Assembly: GCA_027486415.1 (NCBI GenBank)
Contig: JAIXPC010000013.1
Location: 1 to 64,000, forward strand
DNA length: 64,000 bases
From: Sphingomonadales bacterium
GTDB lineage: Bacteria > Pseudomonadota > Alphaproteobacteria > Sphingomonadales > Sphingomonadaceae
Reading direction: 5' to 3'
Positions within the stretch are counted from its first letter, which is position 1. Each line of letters begins with the position of its first letter. A model generated the notes under the pieces. The model saw nothing but the letters and a program-made list of their open reading frames with translations, searched no databases and was not told where the DNA came from. This document shows positions 8,214 through 12,221 of this stretch, in pieces. Position numbers and translations under genes: made by a program.

Positions 8214-8558
8214 TCAGAGCCGAATAGTGTCGTCAGACAGCGCCGACAGGCGTTCCACCAGGCCGATCATCCGGCAATAGGTCTCGATCTTCCTGTCGTC
8301 GCCTGCGGCGAACTTGCTGCCGTTGACGGGCAGGATCTCTGCATTGGGGAACAGATCGTCGATCCCCGAATTGACGAAATGCCAGGCATCGTCGTCAAGC
8401 ATGTCGAACAGGAAAACGCATCGTTCGGTGCGCGGGCTGTCAGCGAGCGCAGAAACGCCGGGCATCACGACGCAATCATGGCCGTCTGCCGACAAGCGAT
8501 GTTTCATCGCCAACCCGAATGCGACGTTGGCGTGCGTAATGATGACCAGCCCTGACAA
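8214..8558 (-). CDS. Hypothetical protein, possibly a degenerate receiver-like domain
   Basis: Not recognised with confidence. The TTG at 8558 is preferred as start because AGAGGG sits six bases upstream; longer starts have no such site. The 114-residue product begins LSGLVIITHANVAFGLAMKHRLSADGHDCVV written in shorter pieces: a hydrophobic strand GLVIITHAN, a helix, a second strand, and later CVFLFDMLDDDAW. That alternation and length resemble a CheY-like receiver, with the Asp of FLFDML where a phospho-acceptor might sit, but the usual Lys-Pro end motif is absent. It lies alone before a regulator island, with an AT-rich inverted repeat upstream. Confidence 0.55.
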   Translation of the reverse strand: MSGLVIITHANVAFGLAMKHRLSADGHDCVVMPGVSALADSPRTERCVFLFDMLDDDAWHFVNSGIDDLFPNAEILPVNGSKFAAGDDRKIETYCRMIGLVERLSALSDDTIRL

Positions 8559-9416
8559 TGTTTGCCCTCTGCAATGAAGGGCGTCTGTAAAATTGCTTGT
8601 GACTGGTGTCCACCCCGACAATTTACATTGTGGCAAATATTTTACAGTTAATGATAAAATATTGATTTATAAGGCTCTGCGCGCAACCGCCTCGCGCACG
8701 AGCTGCTTGCCGGACCGCGGCCCTTGACCCCCGAACCGATTCCCGTGGATCGGGCCGATTGGTCAGCAGCTATTGTCGTACGTCCCGCGACATAGGGGAA
8801 AATACGGATGCTTCTGCACCAAAGGGCGGCTGGTGGTGCCAAAAATGGATGTGTTTTTTTCGGCAGGGGCCGGGGCGCTGACGCAAGCTTTGATGCAAAA
8901 GCGAACCTTCGGGGGCCTTCTTGGCATCTCTATTGCCAATTTTCGAACGATTAGTGCGTTTCGGGTTTGCAGCCGGCGAATCAAAGTTCATCTCGCGTTC
9001 ACAACCGGACCAAATGCAGTTTGGCTTCGCTCCGCCTGACGATAAAAATTGATCCGGATGTGATGTGGAACTGAACTTATCGATCAGCAGCGAGGGCTGG
9101 TCGGCTTTGGGGGCGAAGCAGGGATTCAGGTCTCGTCAGCATCATGTCCAGGCTTTGGGGTCGCCATGACGTGTGTTGTTCTATCGGGAATTCGGGCCCG
9201 CGAAATGCCCGAGGATCAGGCGTATCTTGTATCCCGGCACGTCCTGCGCCCTGCGCCGGAGCGCATGCCCTGTGCCATGCCAACCGACAATGCCTTGTTA
9301 TGGCGACCTGATTTGTCGCAGCTGGGTAACTTCCACCGGGGGCATCAGGCCGCCGATGCCATTAACCTTCATCCGATAGCGGACGCAAATTGGTGCTATG
9401 ATATGGTGTGCACGCG
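8559..9416. other. Long gap upstream of the regulator island
   Basis: About 850 bases without a gene I can support. It holds an AT-rich inverted repeat (8636-8663) and the symmetric ACAATTTACATTGT (8618-8631), both likely tied to the promoter of the minus-strand gene at 8558. It also has a TATGAT box at 9397-9402 close to the start of the regulator at 9417. A short frame at 8773-9039 has no recognisable protein features. Codon use and base composition look non-coding. Its length is unusual for this otherwise compact window. Confidence 0.5.
8636..8663. promoter_or_regulatory. AT-rich inverted repeat
   Basis: AATATTTTA (8636-8644) and TAAAATATT (8655-8663) are perfect nine-base arms around a ten-base centre. 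The segment is almost free of G and C in a GC-rich genome. It lies about 80 bases upstream of the gene starting at 8558 on the minus strand. It could be an operator or an upstream promoter element; the cognate protein is unknown. Confidence 0.4.
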
Positions 9417-10322
9417 ATGATGGCTGATGAAAAGATTGCCAGAGAGAGCATGCCGATCCAGCCGCCGCTGATTGGCGATCTGGGCACGGTTCTTGTTGTC
9501 GATCGTGACGAATTGTGGGCGGGAACCTGCGCCAGTCATCTGCGGAGCAGGGGTTATCATACCGTCGTGGCCGACAGCGTTGCCGAAGCGCGTGACAAGG
9601 CCTGCCGCGCGCCTGTCACGGCGGTCATCGTGGGTAACAGGCTGCCCGATGGTGATGGGTTTGGGGTGATTGAAGCGTTGAGCCGGCCGGGCGCGGTTCC
9701 GGGCTACCGGCCCGGCTTTGTCCTGATTGTGGATGATCTGACGCTGGACATTGCCATGCGGGCGATCCGGGCGTCGGTGGTGGACGTGCTGGAACGGCCG
9801 TTCGGCCTGATGGCGCTGGACGCGGCGCTGGGCCGCCACCGCGCCGCGCGGGGTCAGCCGGATGATGACGCCATGGTGACCAGGCGTTTTGCCGATCTGA
9901 CCGCCGAGCTGCGCCGGTTGAGCAACATGCTGGCAAAGGACGCCGACGAAGAACCGCTGCGCGCGCCGCCGGCCCGGCGGACCGACAAGGATCTTGACGC
10001 CGTTCTGGTGAAGAAGCTGATCCGGGCCGAATATTCGCGCGCCAGGGTGATCGGCGGCAAGATCCTTGGTGATCCGGCGTGGAACATCCTGCTCGATCTG
10101 CTGCTGGCGTCGCTGGAAGGCCGCCAGGTGGCGGTGTCGAGCGCCTGCATCGTGGCCGGCGTGGCGACCACCACCGCACTGCGGCTGGTCAATCGCATGG
10201 TCGATGACGGGGTCCTGGTCCGCATCCCGGACGAGAGTGACGGGCGGCGGCATTTCCTGGCCATCGAGCCGGCCGTCGAGCAGGCGCTGAAGGCCTATAT
10301 CCTCGATCTTGCCGAGCTGTGA
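9417..10322 (+). CDS. Response-regulator-like protein: pseudo-receiver fused to a MarR-type winged helix
   Basis: A 301-residue protein. Residues of about 25-140 form a receiver fold: LGTVLVVDRDELW gives the acidic pair, VIVGNRLPDGDGFGVIEAL matches the strand-3 region, and VVDVLERPFGL matches the end. The phospho-acceptor Asp, expected three residues before LPDGDG, is Gly, and the conserved Lys before Pro is Arg. The C-terminal part (about 200-301) is a MarR-like winged helix with SSACIVAGVATTTALRLVNR and the wing RIPDESDGRRHFLAI. The start is uncertain: GTG 9408, ATG 9417 or ATG 9420. A TATGAT box at 9397 would give a very short leader. It is probably a DNA-binding regulator not controlled by ordinary phosphorylation. 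Confidence 0.78.
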   Translation: MMADEKIARESMPIQPPLIGDLGTVLVVDRDELWAGTCASHLRSRGYHTVVADSVAEARDKACRAPVTAVIVGNRLPDGDGFGVIEALSRPGAVPGYRPGFVLIVDDLTLDIAMRAIRASVVDVLERPFGLMALDAALGRHRAARGQPDDDAMVTRRFADLTAELRRLSNMLAKDADEEPLRAPPARRTDKDLDAVLVKKLIRAEYSRARVIGGKILGDPAWNILLDLLLASLEGRQVAVSSACIVAGVATTTALRLVNRMVDDGVLVRIPDESDGRRHFLAIEPAVEQALKAYILDLAEL

Positions 10323-10499
10323 CAGGCAAGCCGCCGCCCGGGGCGGATCATTCGAAACCGGATATTGTTGGAATGCCAACCACTTTGCAGTTGGCAAACG
10401 GGCTTCCTATCCACGTTTTTGTCAAAGGTCACGCCAAGGGGAGCGTATGGGGACGATGTTGGCGCGCTTGCCCGCCTGTCACGAACTGAAGGCCGCGCA

Positions 10500-10814
10500 A
10501 TGACCAGCCCGGGGCAACCCGCCAGCGACTTCATCCAGCAGGCGCTGCACGTCGAACGCGTGTTCATGGCCAAGATTGGCGTGGACGCGCTGAAGCCCGA
10601 AGCCAAGCTGCTGCTGCTGCTCAACCAGCACGGCGCAATGAGCGTCAAGCAGGCGATGAGCATTTCCGGCCTGTCGTATCGCGGCTTCTACAATCTGCTC
10701 AACCGCCTCAATGCCCAGCAGCTTGTCACCATCACGCCCGATACCAGCGACCGGCGGGTGAAGAAGATCGGGCCGGGCGAGAAGGCGAAATTCGCCGTCC
10801 TGCTCGCCGGCTGA
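10500..10814 (+). CDS. Minimal MarR-like winged-helix protein
   Basis: A 104-residue protein starting at ATG 10500. After a short helix it is essentially one winged helix: LKPEAKLLLLLNQHG, then MSVKQAMSISGLSYRGFYNLLNR as the helix-turn-helix and the wing ITPDTSDRRVKKIGP. The D-x-S-D-R-R wing resembles that of the regulator at 9417, but there is no receiver and no C-terminal dimerisation helix as in full MarR proteins. It sits 177 bases downstream of that regulator on the same strand. It probably binds DNA; the target is unknown. Confidence 0.7.
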   Translation: MTSPGQPASDFIQQALHVERVFMAKIGVDALKPEAKLLLLLNQHGAMSVKQAMSISGLSYRGFYNLLNRLNAQQLVTITPDTSDRRVKKIGPGEKAKFAVLLAG

Positions 10815-10825
10815 GCCGTCGCATA

Positions 10826-10869
10826 CCGGGCCTGCCGGCGCGACTCGGCACCCCGGTGGCAGGCCTGGG
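10826..10869 (+). terminator. GC-rich inverted repeat after the winged-helix gene
   Basis: CCGGGCCTGCC at 10826 pairs imperfectly with GGCAGGCCTGG at 10858, with about 20 bases between, beginning 11 bases after the stop at 10814. No T-tract follows, so it may act as an attenuating or protective hairpin rather than a full intrinsic terminator. Confidence 0.4.
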
Positions 10870-11012
10870 TATCATTCCGGAGCCAGTTGCAATTGCCCGC
10901 TGCCCTGCCCCTCGGTAATCCCGCACAAGAAGCGTTCGGATGCGGTTGTGACCTTGTTTGTGCCGGCGACGAGCCGCCCTCCATATGCGGCCAGCAACAA
11001 GGGTCGCCAACC

Positions 11013-11264
11013 ATGAGCATGCATCTGAAACGGCAAGCCAACCTGGGGTTCGCGCTCGCGGCCGTCGGCGTTCTCGCCGCCCTGCTGCTGAAGGACATGG
11101 GGCTGTGGAAACTGCTCATCCCGGTCTGGCTGGTGGCATGGGTGGTCGTGCAGATTGCCCTGCAACACGTGGCCACCCGCCCGCTCACCCAAGACAGCAA
11201 GCGCCGCTGGCCCGATGCCGCCACCGTCCGGCGCTGCATCAAGTCGCGGGACGCGGTGGGCTGA
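11013..11264 (+). CDS. Small inner-membrane protein, hypothetical
   Basis: An 83-residue protein not recognised as a known family. The ATG at 11013 follows AAGGG by about nine bases. The two hydrophobic segments LGFALAAVGVLAALLL and LWKLLIPVWLVAWVVVQIAL make two likely membrane helices separated by a short KDMG loop, with a basic tail (DSKRRW, RRCIKSR). Both ends therefore probably face the cytoplasm. It lies between two regulator genes on the same strand, and nothing in the sequence links it to them functionally. Confidence 0.55.
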   Translation: MSMHLKRQANLGFALAAVGVLAALLLKDMGLWKLLIPVWLVAWVVVQIALQHVATRPLTQDSKRRWPDAATVRRCIKSRDAVG

Positions 11265-11558
11265 TCGCCGCGCGCTAACCGCGCTTATCCGAAAATGTCC
11301 GGCCTGTTGCCAAGCCGGTTGCCATGGCGGCGCGGCGACTCGATGGCCAGCGCGCCATGCGCCTTTCCCTGCGCCGGCGGGCCGCGCACATCGTGCCAGC
11401 GGGGTGCCGCCCCTGCCGATCGGCATGGGGGAAACTACCGATACCGGCACTGATCCAGCTTGTTTCGGCGTTAACGAAAGGGAATTTGGCAGCGTGACGA
11501 TGTCGGGGGCGTGGCCCACGGCGCCACCGCCCACAGGCGTTTCAGTTGGGAACGGAAC

Positions 11559-12221
11559 ATGACGGAACTGGTTGGTGACATGATGGATGGTGGCCGGGTC
11601 GGTCTGGCGGAACGCCGGTCGTTTGACCCCATTGATTTCAGCGATGCCGCAAATGCCCTGCATTCGCTGATCTCGCAGGCGGAAACGCTGCTGCGGACGT
11701 GCCGCACTCTCGTCACCCAGGTGCGGGAACCGGCCGGCGCTGCCGACAGCAACTGGGCGCAGCGCATCAGCGAGCTGCAGGACCAGCAGGATGCGATGGC
11801 GCAGTGGACGGATCGCGCCGGCGTGCGCGGCGACAAGGCCGATGGCCGTGGCTTTCGCCGGTACGATCACATGGATGTGGATGTCGATCTGCTGCAGATC
11901 TTCAAATCCTGCCTGCCGGATCTGGGCATCGCGCCGCTGGTGGTGCTGACCACGCTGCTGGCCAACCAGGGTCGCATCGTTGCCAATGCCGATATCCGCA
12001 AGGCGCTGGGCACGGAATCGCTGACCATCGTCAAGGTTTACGTGTCGCGCCTGCGCCACCTGTTCCGCAGCCACGGCGTCGACGTGGAAATTTCGGTGCT
12101 GAAGGGTGGTTACGGCCTGCCGCGCGATTGCGCCGTGCAGGTGCTGAGCGGGCTGGGCTTTGACGACAGCCAGGTCAAGACGATCCTCAGCTCGTCGCTG
12201 ATCGAGCGCGCGCGCGCCTGA
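11559..12221 (+). CDS. Stand-alone OmpR-type winged-helix regulator (no receiver)
   Basis: A 220-residue protein from ATG 11559 (GGGAACGGAAC just upstream). Residues of about 1-110 are helical and unrecognised, with a Gln/Asp-rich stretch (SELQDQQDAMAQW) that may be coiled. Residues of about 125-195 match the OmpR/PhoB DNA-binding domain: LVVLTTLLANQGRIV, ADIRKALGTE, then TIVKVYVSRLRHLFRSHG as the recognition helix and VLKGGYGL as the hairpin. The normal N-terminal receiver is missing, so activity must be controlled otherwise. It is the last gene of the regulator island and converges on greB. Confidence 0.75.
   Translation: MTELVGDMMDGGRVGLAERRSFDPIDFSDAANALHSLISQAETLLRTCRTLVTQVREPAGAADSNWAQRISELQDQQDAMAQWTDRAGVRGDKADGRGFRRYDHMDVDVDLLQIFKSCLPDLGIAPLVVLTTLLANQGRIVANADIRKALGTESLTIVKVYVSRLRHLFRSHGVDVEISVLKGGYGLPRDCAVQVLSGLGFDDSQVKTILSSSLIERARA

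Follow-up and report, generated by a model that had tools for sequence, protein, structure and literature searches.

The window, a 64,000-nt stretch of a contig from a Sphingomonadales bacterium, comes from a genome of the same genus as Sandarakinorhabdus limnophila DSM 17366 and carries a regulator gene whose product appears to join a receiver domain, a linker helix and a MarR-like winged helix (Table 1). The open reading frame was confirmed on the plus strand at 9408-10322 and encodes 304 amino acids from a GTG at 9408 or 301 amino acids from an ATG at 9417; we number residues from the ATG.

Table 1. Features of the regulator locus, in window coordinates.
Feature	Position	Strand	Basis
Whole ORF, pseudo-receiver/MarR-like winged-helix regulator	9408..10322	+	three orthologues 50-52% identical, common downstream order
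Further possible start ATG, preceded by AGAGAG	9450	+	sequence
Receiver domain, approximately residues 25-142, with D29, R30, G73, V105 and R127	9489..9842	+	Pfam, residue table, AlphaFold2, Foldseek, VIA
Codon GGT for Gly73 at the phospho-acceptor Asp position	9633..9635	+	translation, alignment
Predicted linker helix, residues 151-174	9867..9938	+	model (pLDDT <50); pattern in aligned clade
Predicted MarR-like winged-helix domain	9984..10319	+	MarR_2 below cut-off; Foldseek PefR and Variovorax MarR; family alignment
Conserved cassette neighbour, no Pfam match	8214..8636	-	shared order; not a receiver by profile comparison
Small MarR-like cassette neighbour	10452..10814	+	Pfam MarR_2/MarR below cut-off; shared order
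Small conserved cassette gene, product has a hydrophobic stretch	10887..11264	+	shared order
Cassette neighbour, OmpR-like C-terminal winged helix	11559..12221	+	Trans_reg_C below cut-off; shared order

The receiver scores above the Pfam cut-off for PF00072 (32.7 bits against 30.2, E 9.2e-8), and the C-terminal domain scores below those for MarR_2 (18.4 bits against 27) and MarR (13.1 bits against 24.6). Within NCBIfam, the protein falls below the cut-off of Saro0803 (16.5 against 200), and its best partial match, the ActR/PrrA/RegA group, is also far below its threshold (42.6 against 250 bits). When solved structures were searched with phmmer, the N-terminus matched NtrC4-type receivers and the C-terminus matched Tm0710, a MarR protein. 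The full-length model is weak, with a mean pLDDT of 54 and values below 50 in the linker; residues 221-290, the region that matches MarR structures, reach 74-82. The top Foldseek matches of the C-terminal part were PefR and a Variovorax MarR (E 4e-5 to 1e-4, probability 1.00), at a high rmsd of 9-13 Å in the top three rows. In the model the output domain has a MarR-like winged-helix fold, though it lies under the Pfam MarR cut-offs, and a single chain holds both a receiver and this output. The linker pattern L-[ST]-x-E-[LI]-x-x-L recurs in all 12 aligned members of the clade described below.

We aligned the active site of the receiver with others, including four receivers from the same genome. 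Only one of the five catalytic positions is kept, D29; Arg30 stands at the second acidic position, Gly73 at the acceptor Asp, Val105 at the Thr and Arg127 at the Lys. The earlier note had read Gly for the acceptor and Arg for the Lys correctly, had missed the loss of Thr, and was mistaken in regarding the acidic pair as kept: VVDRDE has Asp first and Arg second where intact relatives linked to Tad genes have DDD. In the alignment, the second Asp of VDRD falls opposite the third Asp in the relatives' VDDD, so the pair is broken. LPDGDG, to which it had also pointed, is present and lies outside the five catalytic positions. The protein thus lacks the DD, D, T, K set that defines a canonical response regulator, and it combines a recognisable receiver with absent key catalytic residues, Asp among them, as pseudo-receivers or aspartate-less receivers do. 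It is almost certainly a pseudo-receiver protein. Separately, Cys38 (window 9528-9530) in receiver helix alpha1 is Cys in 12 of 12 aligned clade members, with or without a phosphorylation site.

A receiver-only AlphaFold2 model, built from an input of five sequences, is of moderate confidence (mean pLDDT 66) and does not form beta5. In this model Gly73 (model residue 53) is the final residue of beta3 and Val105 (model residue 85) the final residue of beta4; placing Gly73 at the acceptor position relies on this secondary structure together with the alignment. Foldseek matched the modelled receiver to receivers. By VIA, its highest Z was with the PhoP receiver (5ed4_F; Z 13.7, rmsd 1.9, 100 residues), and a CheY protein matched as well (CheY4, 4h60; Z 12.6, rmsd 1.7, 96 residues). 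The receiver fold thus appears to be retained in the model. Loss of Asp phosphorylation is well supported, because four of the five catalytic positions are replaced and the Gly is the last beta3 residue in the model. Phosphorylation could have moved to D31, D78 or D80, which follow beta1 or beta3 in sequence and lie near the old site. We consider this very improbable: none of the three is at the beta3 end, where the model places Gly73, and the second metal-binding residue has been lost together with the Thr and the Lys.

The gene was found in four of 24 genomes of the genus at E <= 1e-30, the window's included, and the other three copies are orthologues, 50-52% identical to the window protein. 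All three have D,S,D,T,K at the catalytic positions, where the window protein has D,R,G,V,R. Since they keep Asp, Thr and Lys, the Asp loss is specific to the window lineage. The orthologue receivers, too, are less than fully canonical: their second acidic position is occupied by Ser, and LPDG has Asn in place of its Pro. The nearest genomes are only ~51% identical in this protein, so the window substitutions rest on one assembly. An assembly or sequencing error would fit an allele seen in a single assembly; several separate codons have changed together in a frame that is otherwise open, so that no single error suffices as the cause, and we find this explanation hardly credible.

The window and the three orthologues share a gene order: the minus-strand gene at 8214, the regulator, the genes at 10452, 10887 and 11559, and further downstream genes. 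One orthologue genome has an additional open reading frame between the 8214 homologue and the regulator, and none of the three orthologue stretches had a match to the efflux genes that lie upstream of 8214. The other genes of this cassette (8214-12221) are 38-63% identical between the window and the three Sandarakinorhabdus genomes and the genes downstream of it 79-91%, which marks the cassette as a fast-changing block. The 8214-8636 neighbour was rejected as a degraded receiver, since hhalign gave it a probability of at most 2% with each of five profiles; in that comparison a row of its four-row alignment is fragmentary, and several rows of the other cassette neighbours' alignments are cut by stops. 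The upstream regions of the window and orthologue genes have only one 9-mer in common, and the single exact palindrome seen upstream of four other copies is absent from the window, so that these regions revealed no operator common to window and orthologues. On a short contig labelled as an Oxalobacteraceae MAG, a partial Sandarakinorhabdus cassette (L045) includes a regulator that has the Asp and is close to the orthologues; its placement in that MAG is probably a binning error.

A cognate kinase gene close by is customary for a canonical response regulator, though not required. No histidine kinase lies in the 64-kb window by profile search: none of the 21 HATPase_c matches of the genome falls there. 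The nearest on the same contig is at ~110 kb, and a distant kinase is possible. A crude motif search for adjacent kinases found the two annotated kinases supplied and none in the window.

A tree of 87 winged-helix sequences joins the window protein, its three orthologues and eight distinct relatives from Sphingobium, Novosphingobium, Sphingomonas and three further genomes in one clade (support 100/95); the tree uses the winged helix alone, with few columns and long branches outside the clade. It is highly probable that the window protein belongs to an alphaproteobacterial family of receiver, helical linker and MarR-like winged helix. A search of 298 genomes of the bacterial family returned seven with a match at E <= 1e-28, three of them in the window's genus, the window itself included. 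A plasmid search gave 34 records, and in eight of these a single site spanned 80% or more of the query. Among the plasmid matches, pMC4 of Sphingopyxis indica has a protein named 'JAB domain-containing' that matches this winged helix (L142, 3446-4258); its gene has Trb conjugation genes on one side and a MobF relaxase on the other. The same name is attached to three further plasmid matches.

In the closest relatives outside the genus, Tad/Flp genes lie directly upstream of the regulator at nine of nine loci, six of them on plasmids, in the order CpaE-CpaF-TadB-TadC-TPR-TadG-Flp-TadE. The nine include pNIN1, the source of the queries, and YBL2, whose protein is identical to that of pNIN1 and is counted here but not in the tree; the YBL2 stretch spans only the last part of the Tad operon. 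The peptidase had no match in the G700 and G732 loci. By annotation, in pNIN1 and 3pYBL2-3 only, the regulator is the final gene of the operon and an opposite-strand ParB gene follows; on both plasmids there are also, a few kb ahead of the operon, genes for a HAMP histidine kinase, a lone receiver protein and an acyl-homoserine-lactone synthase. On pNIN1 of Sphingobium sp. JS3065 (L110, 1-8816; L137, 250-9769), where the Tad operon ends in the receiver-MarR regulator, EAL proteins are found near the operon beside the HAMP kinase, the lone receiver protein and the synthase. Six of the eight aligned Tad-linked relatives have D,D,D,T,K; G700 and G732 sit inside the Tad clade with G,N,D,A,K.

By sequence, the window gene belongs to this Tad-linked clade, but no Tad operon lies beside it. 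No Tad genes were matched in any of the four Sandarakinorhabdus stretches (16-64 kb), and the cassette genes had no match within the Tad-linked loci compared. A tie to the genome's own Tad cluster (contig C14, ~510-514 kb) was rejected: that cluster is of a different Tad lineage (CpaF 51%, TadB 26%), and the 19 kb examined there contained nothing that matched the regulator query. In one of seven more distant loci (L128), TadB, TadC and TPR matches lie a few kb from the regulator.

The two halves of the window protein have diverged unevenly. Against the orthologues, the winged helix is 83% identical, the linker 30-33% and the receiver 32-35%. The resulting ratio of receiver to winged-helix identity, 0.39-0.42, is the lowest of 66 pairs, the next being 0.48. 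Tad relatives form four pairs whose winged helices are 82-87% identical, and in these the receivers are 59-68% identical. These figures indicate that the output domain has been conserved and that the receiver is either drifting freely or adapting; the low receiver identity could equally reflect simple decay. The receiver might then be a functionless remnant under relaxed constraint, and the protein already a plain MarR-like repressor or activator whose N-terminus is gradually being lost. This would agree with the gap from Tad pairs of like winged-helix identity, and with relatives that have the domain in other company: the same genome has two winged-helix relatives, one (L003) without a Pfam receiver and one (L002) with none visible by eye in its N-terminus, and five of the 87 family rows have a different N-terminus and no receiver. 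However, the frame is open over the entire receiver, the model still has a receiver fold, and conserved positions remain, among them D29, the alpha1 Cys and those of the RAS-V-D-L-PF segment. On balance we regard a mere remnant as rather unlikely. As a separate observation, L002 (1447-2157), L021, L025, L028 and L031 form a winged-helix branch without a visible receiver and with an QVADMAQGLAALAD helix in the N-terminus.

The explanation that we find best overall, at somewhat better than even odds, is that the protein is a phosphorylation-independent pseudo-receiver member of a rare, known type of response regulator; that its receiver is still useful to such a regulator we put at about even. 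The protein would be a family member that turned pseudo-receiver in its own lineage and acts as an orphan regulator, active without Asp phosphorylation. It would bind operators of the ancestral type through its winged helix, as a dimer that linker and winged helix hold together. The receiver would do no more than provide a scaffold, either for dimerisation or for a partner, and output would be set by the protein's own amount or by a partner. Control by ligand, partner or abundance, as the earlier note had concluded, is plausible, but a domain in simple decay would account for the data too.

A ligand or redox signal may instead gate the pseudo-receiver, C38 in alpha1 or a small molecule replacing phosphorylation. 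A recent review (PMC12632262) describes other pseudo-receivers that bind ligands or are under redox control by a Cys located after alpha1, and the alpha1 Cys is found throughout the 12 aligned clade members. Because relatives that retain the phosphorylation site have this Cys just as well, it did not evolve as a substitute for phosphorylation, and we think such gating quite improbable.

Beyond this clade, the winged-helix profile has matches at E <= 1e-6 in 24 of 289 genomes of the class, of which four, the window's included, are Sphingomonadaceae; the loci returned by this search were the ones examined. A receiver with this winged helix was found in other alphaproteobacterial families. The residue table has 14 rows from outside the Sphingomonadaceae, two of which come from plasmids. 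In 11 of the 14, both acidic residues, the Asp, Thr or Ser, and the Lys are retained; L102 has Ala for Thr, and L098 and the relative from Azospirillum sp. B510 (L116) have lost most catalytic positions. The table leaves out L095 and L100, whose open reading frames have no receiver, and L097 and L099, near-copies of L096. Within the window's family, genome G613 has an intact active site. Separate losses of the phosphorylation site are likely, their number being drawn from one tree. For seventeen rows of genus-specific short relatives, identity as receivers was not supported, at a probability of 6-12%.

Across the Sphingomonadales, 208 of 296 genomes have a match to the winged-helix profile, and every matching genome belongs to the window's family; five family genomes are shown without a match and 68 match-less genomes are unlisted, and since the profile spans several branches, the figure counts the domain. 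A typical member of this common type (L077-L085, e.g. L077 7152-8234) is a winged-helix regulator of ~340 aa whose N-terminus resembles an eroded receiver. In nine of ten neighbourhoods, picked from the best matches, a nearby gene is one that we take, by eye, to be purA; in the tenth, the gene caller returned no purA. One such member had no NCBIfam family at E <= 1e-5; Pfam assigned its winged helix to HTH_27 and recognised no receiver in it. When the N-termini of 25 rows of this type were combined into a single profile, they aligned with receivers over 121-125 columns at an hhalign probability of 75-79%, against 0.1-0.8% for two winged-helix and five column-shuffled controls; against the receivers of the window clade the probability is only 29%. 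We read this N-terminus as a putative eroded receiver. A broader reading, which we hold tentatively, is that the family lost phosphorylation repeatedly (in the window species, in G700/G732, in Azospirillum sp. B510, in the L098 lineage and in the widespread Sphingomonadaceae member), that a near-universal Sphingomonadaceae transcription factor is built on an eroded receiver that has escaped recognition, and that the window protein is a snapshot taken soon after a switch from phosphorylation to other control.

These results can be set beside several known systems. The Tad-linked response regulators of Sphingobium, Novosphingobium and Sphingomonas plasmids share with the window protein the layout of receiver, linker and winged helix, the clade and a near-identical recognition helix; where annotated, they are called merely 'response regulator' (e.g. 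WP_230463495.1 on pNIN1). Unlike it, they have DD/D/T/K intact in six of eight cases, adjoining Tad genes and, on the two plasmids checked, a HAMP kinase. They point to a regulator tied to the plasmid-borne Tad pili of sphingomonads, of which we found no study in the literature searched. For receiver-MarR fusions and Tad-linked sphingomonad regulators, that literature, with subscription papers mostly outside it, yielded an Azospirillum table and no study of this family. The Azospirillum survey (PMC4618731) includes MarR among response-regulator output families, so that a receiver with a MarR output, as in the window protein, had already been described, one of the two outcomes that the earlier note named as refuting its view; the earlier note's view of MarR as an unusual partner stands as to rarity but not as to novelty, given this survey and the other alphaproteobacterial families. 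The Azospirillum sp. B510 plasmid relative, whether or not it is the gene that the survey counted, has a related winged helix behind its receiver and is a pseudo-receiver too, but through other changes (G,H,Q,A,D).

PefR, the Variovorax MarR and Tm0710 share the winged-helix fold by Foldseek or a sequence match by phmmer, and their chains match the C-terminal part of the window protein only. For its receiver, the counterparts are pseudo-receivers and aspartate-less receivers such as RitR, ChxR, Rem and HP1043, which in the passages available (PMC12632262, PMC4395418) have the fold without the acceptor Asp and its partner residues, as in the window. Pseudo-receivers make up ~6% of bacterial receivers, or ~13% of prokaryotic ones by an earlier inference, and in the same passages of that 2025 review the working of non-phosphorylatable bacterial receivers is called a mystery (PMC12632262). 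Those passages make no mention of a MarR output among pseudo-receivers, and the word is absent from the main text of PMC4395418. We conclude that the architecture is already known but rare, and that what is new here is a pseudo-receiver and a MarR output together, with intact relatives close enough to compare. One clade thus offers intact, partly eroded and fully eroded receivers in front of DNA-binding domains that are related to one another (window and orthologues share 83% identity here), a ready-made biochemical comparison.
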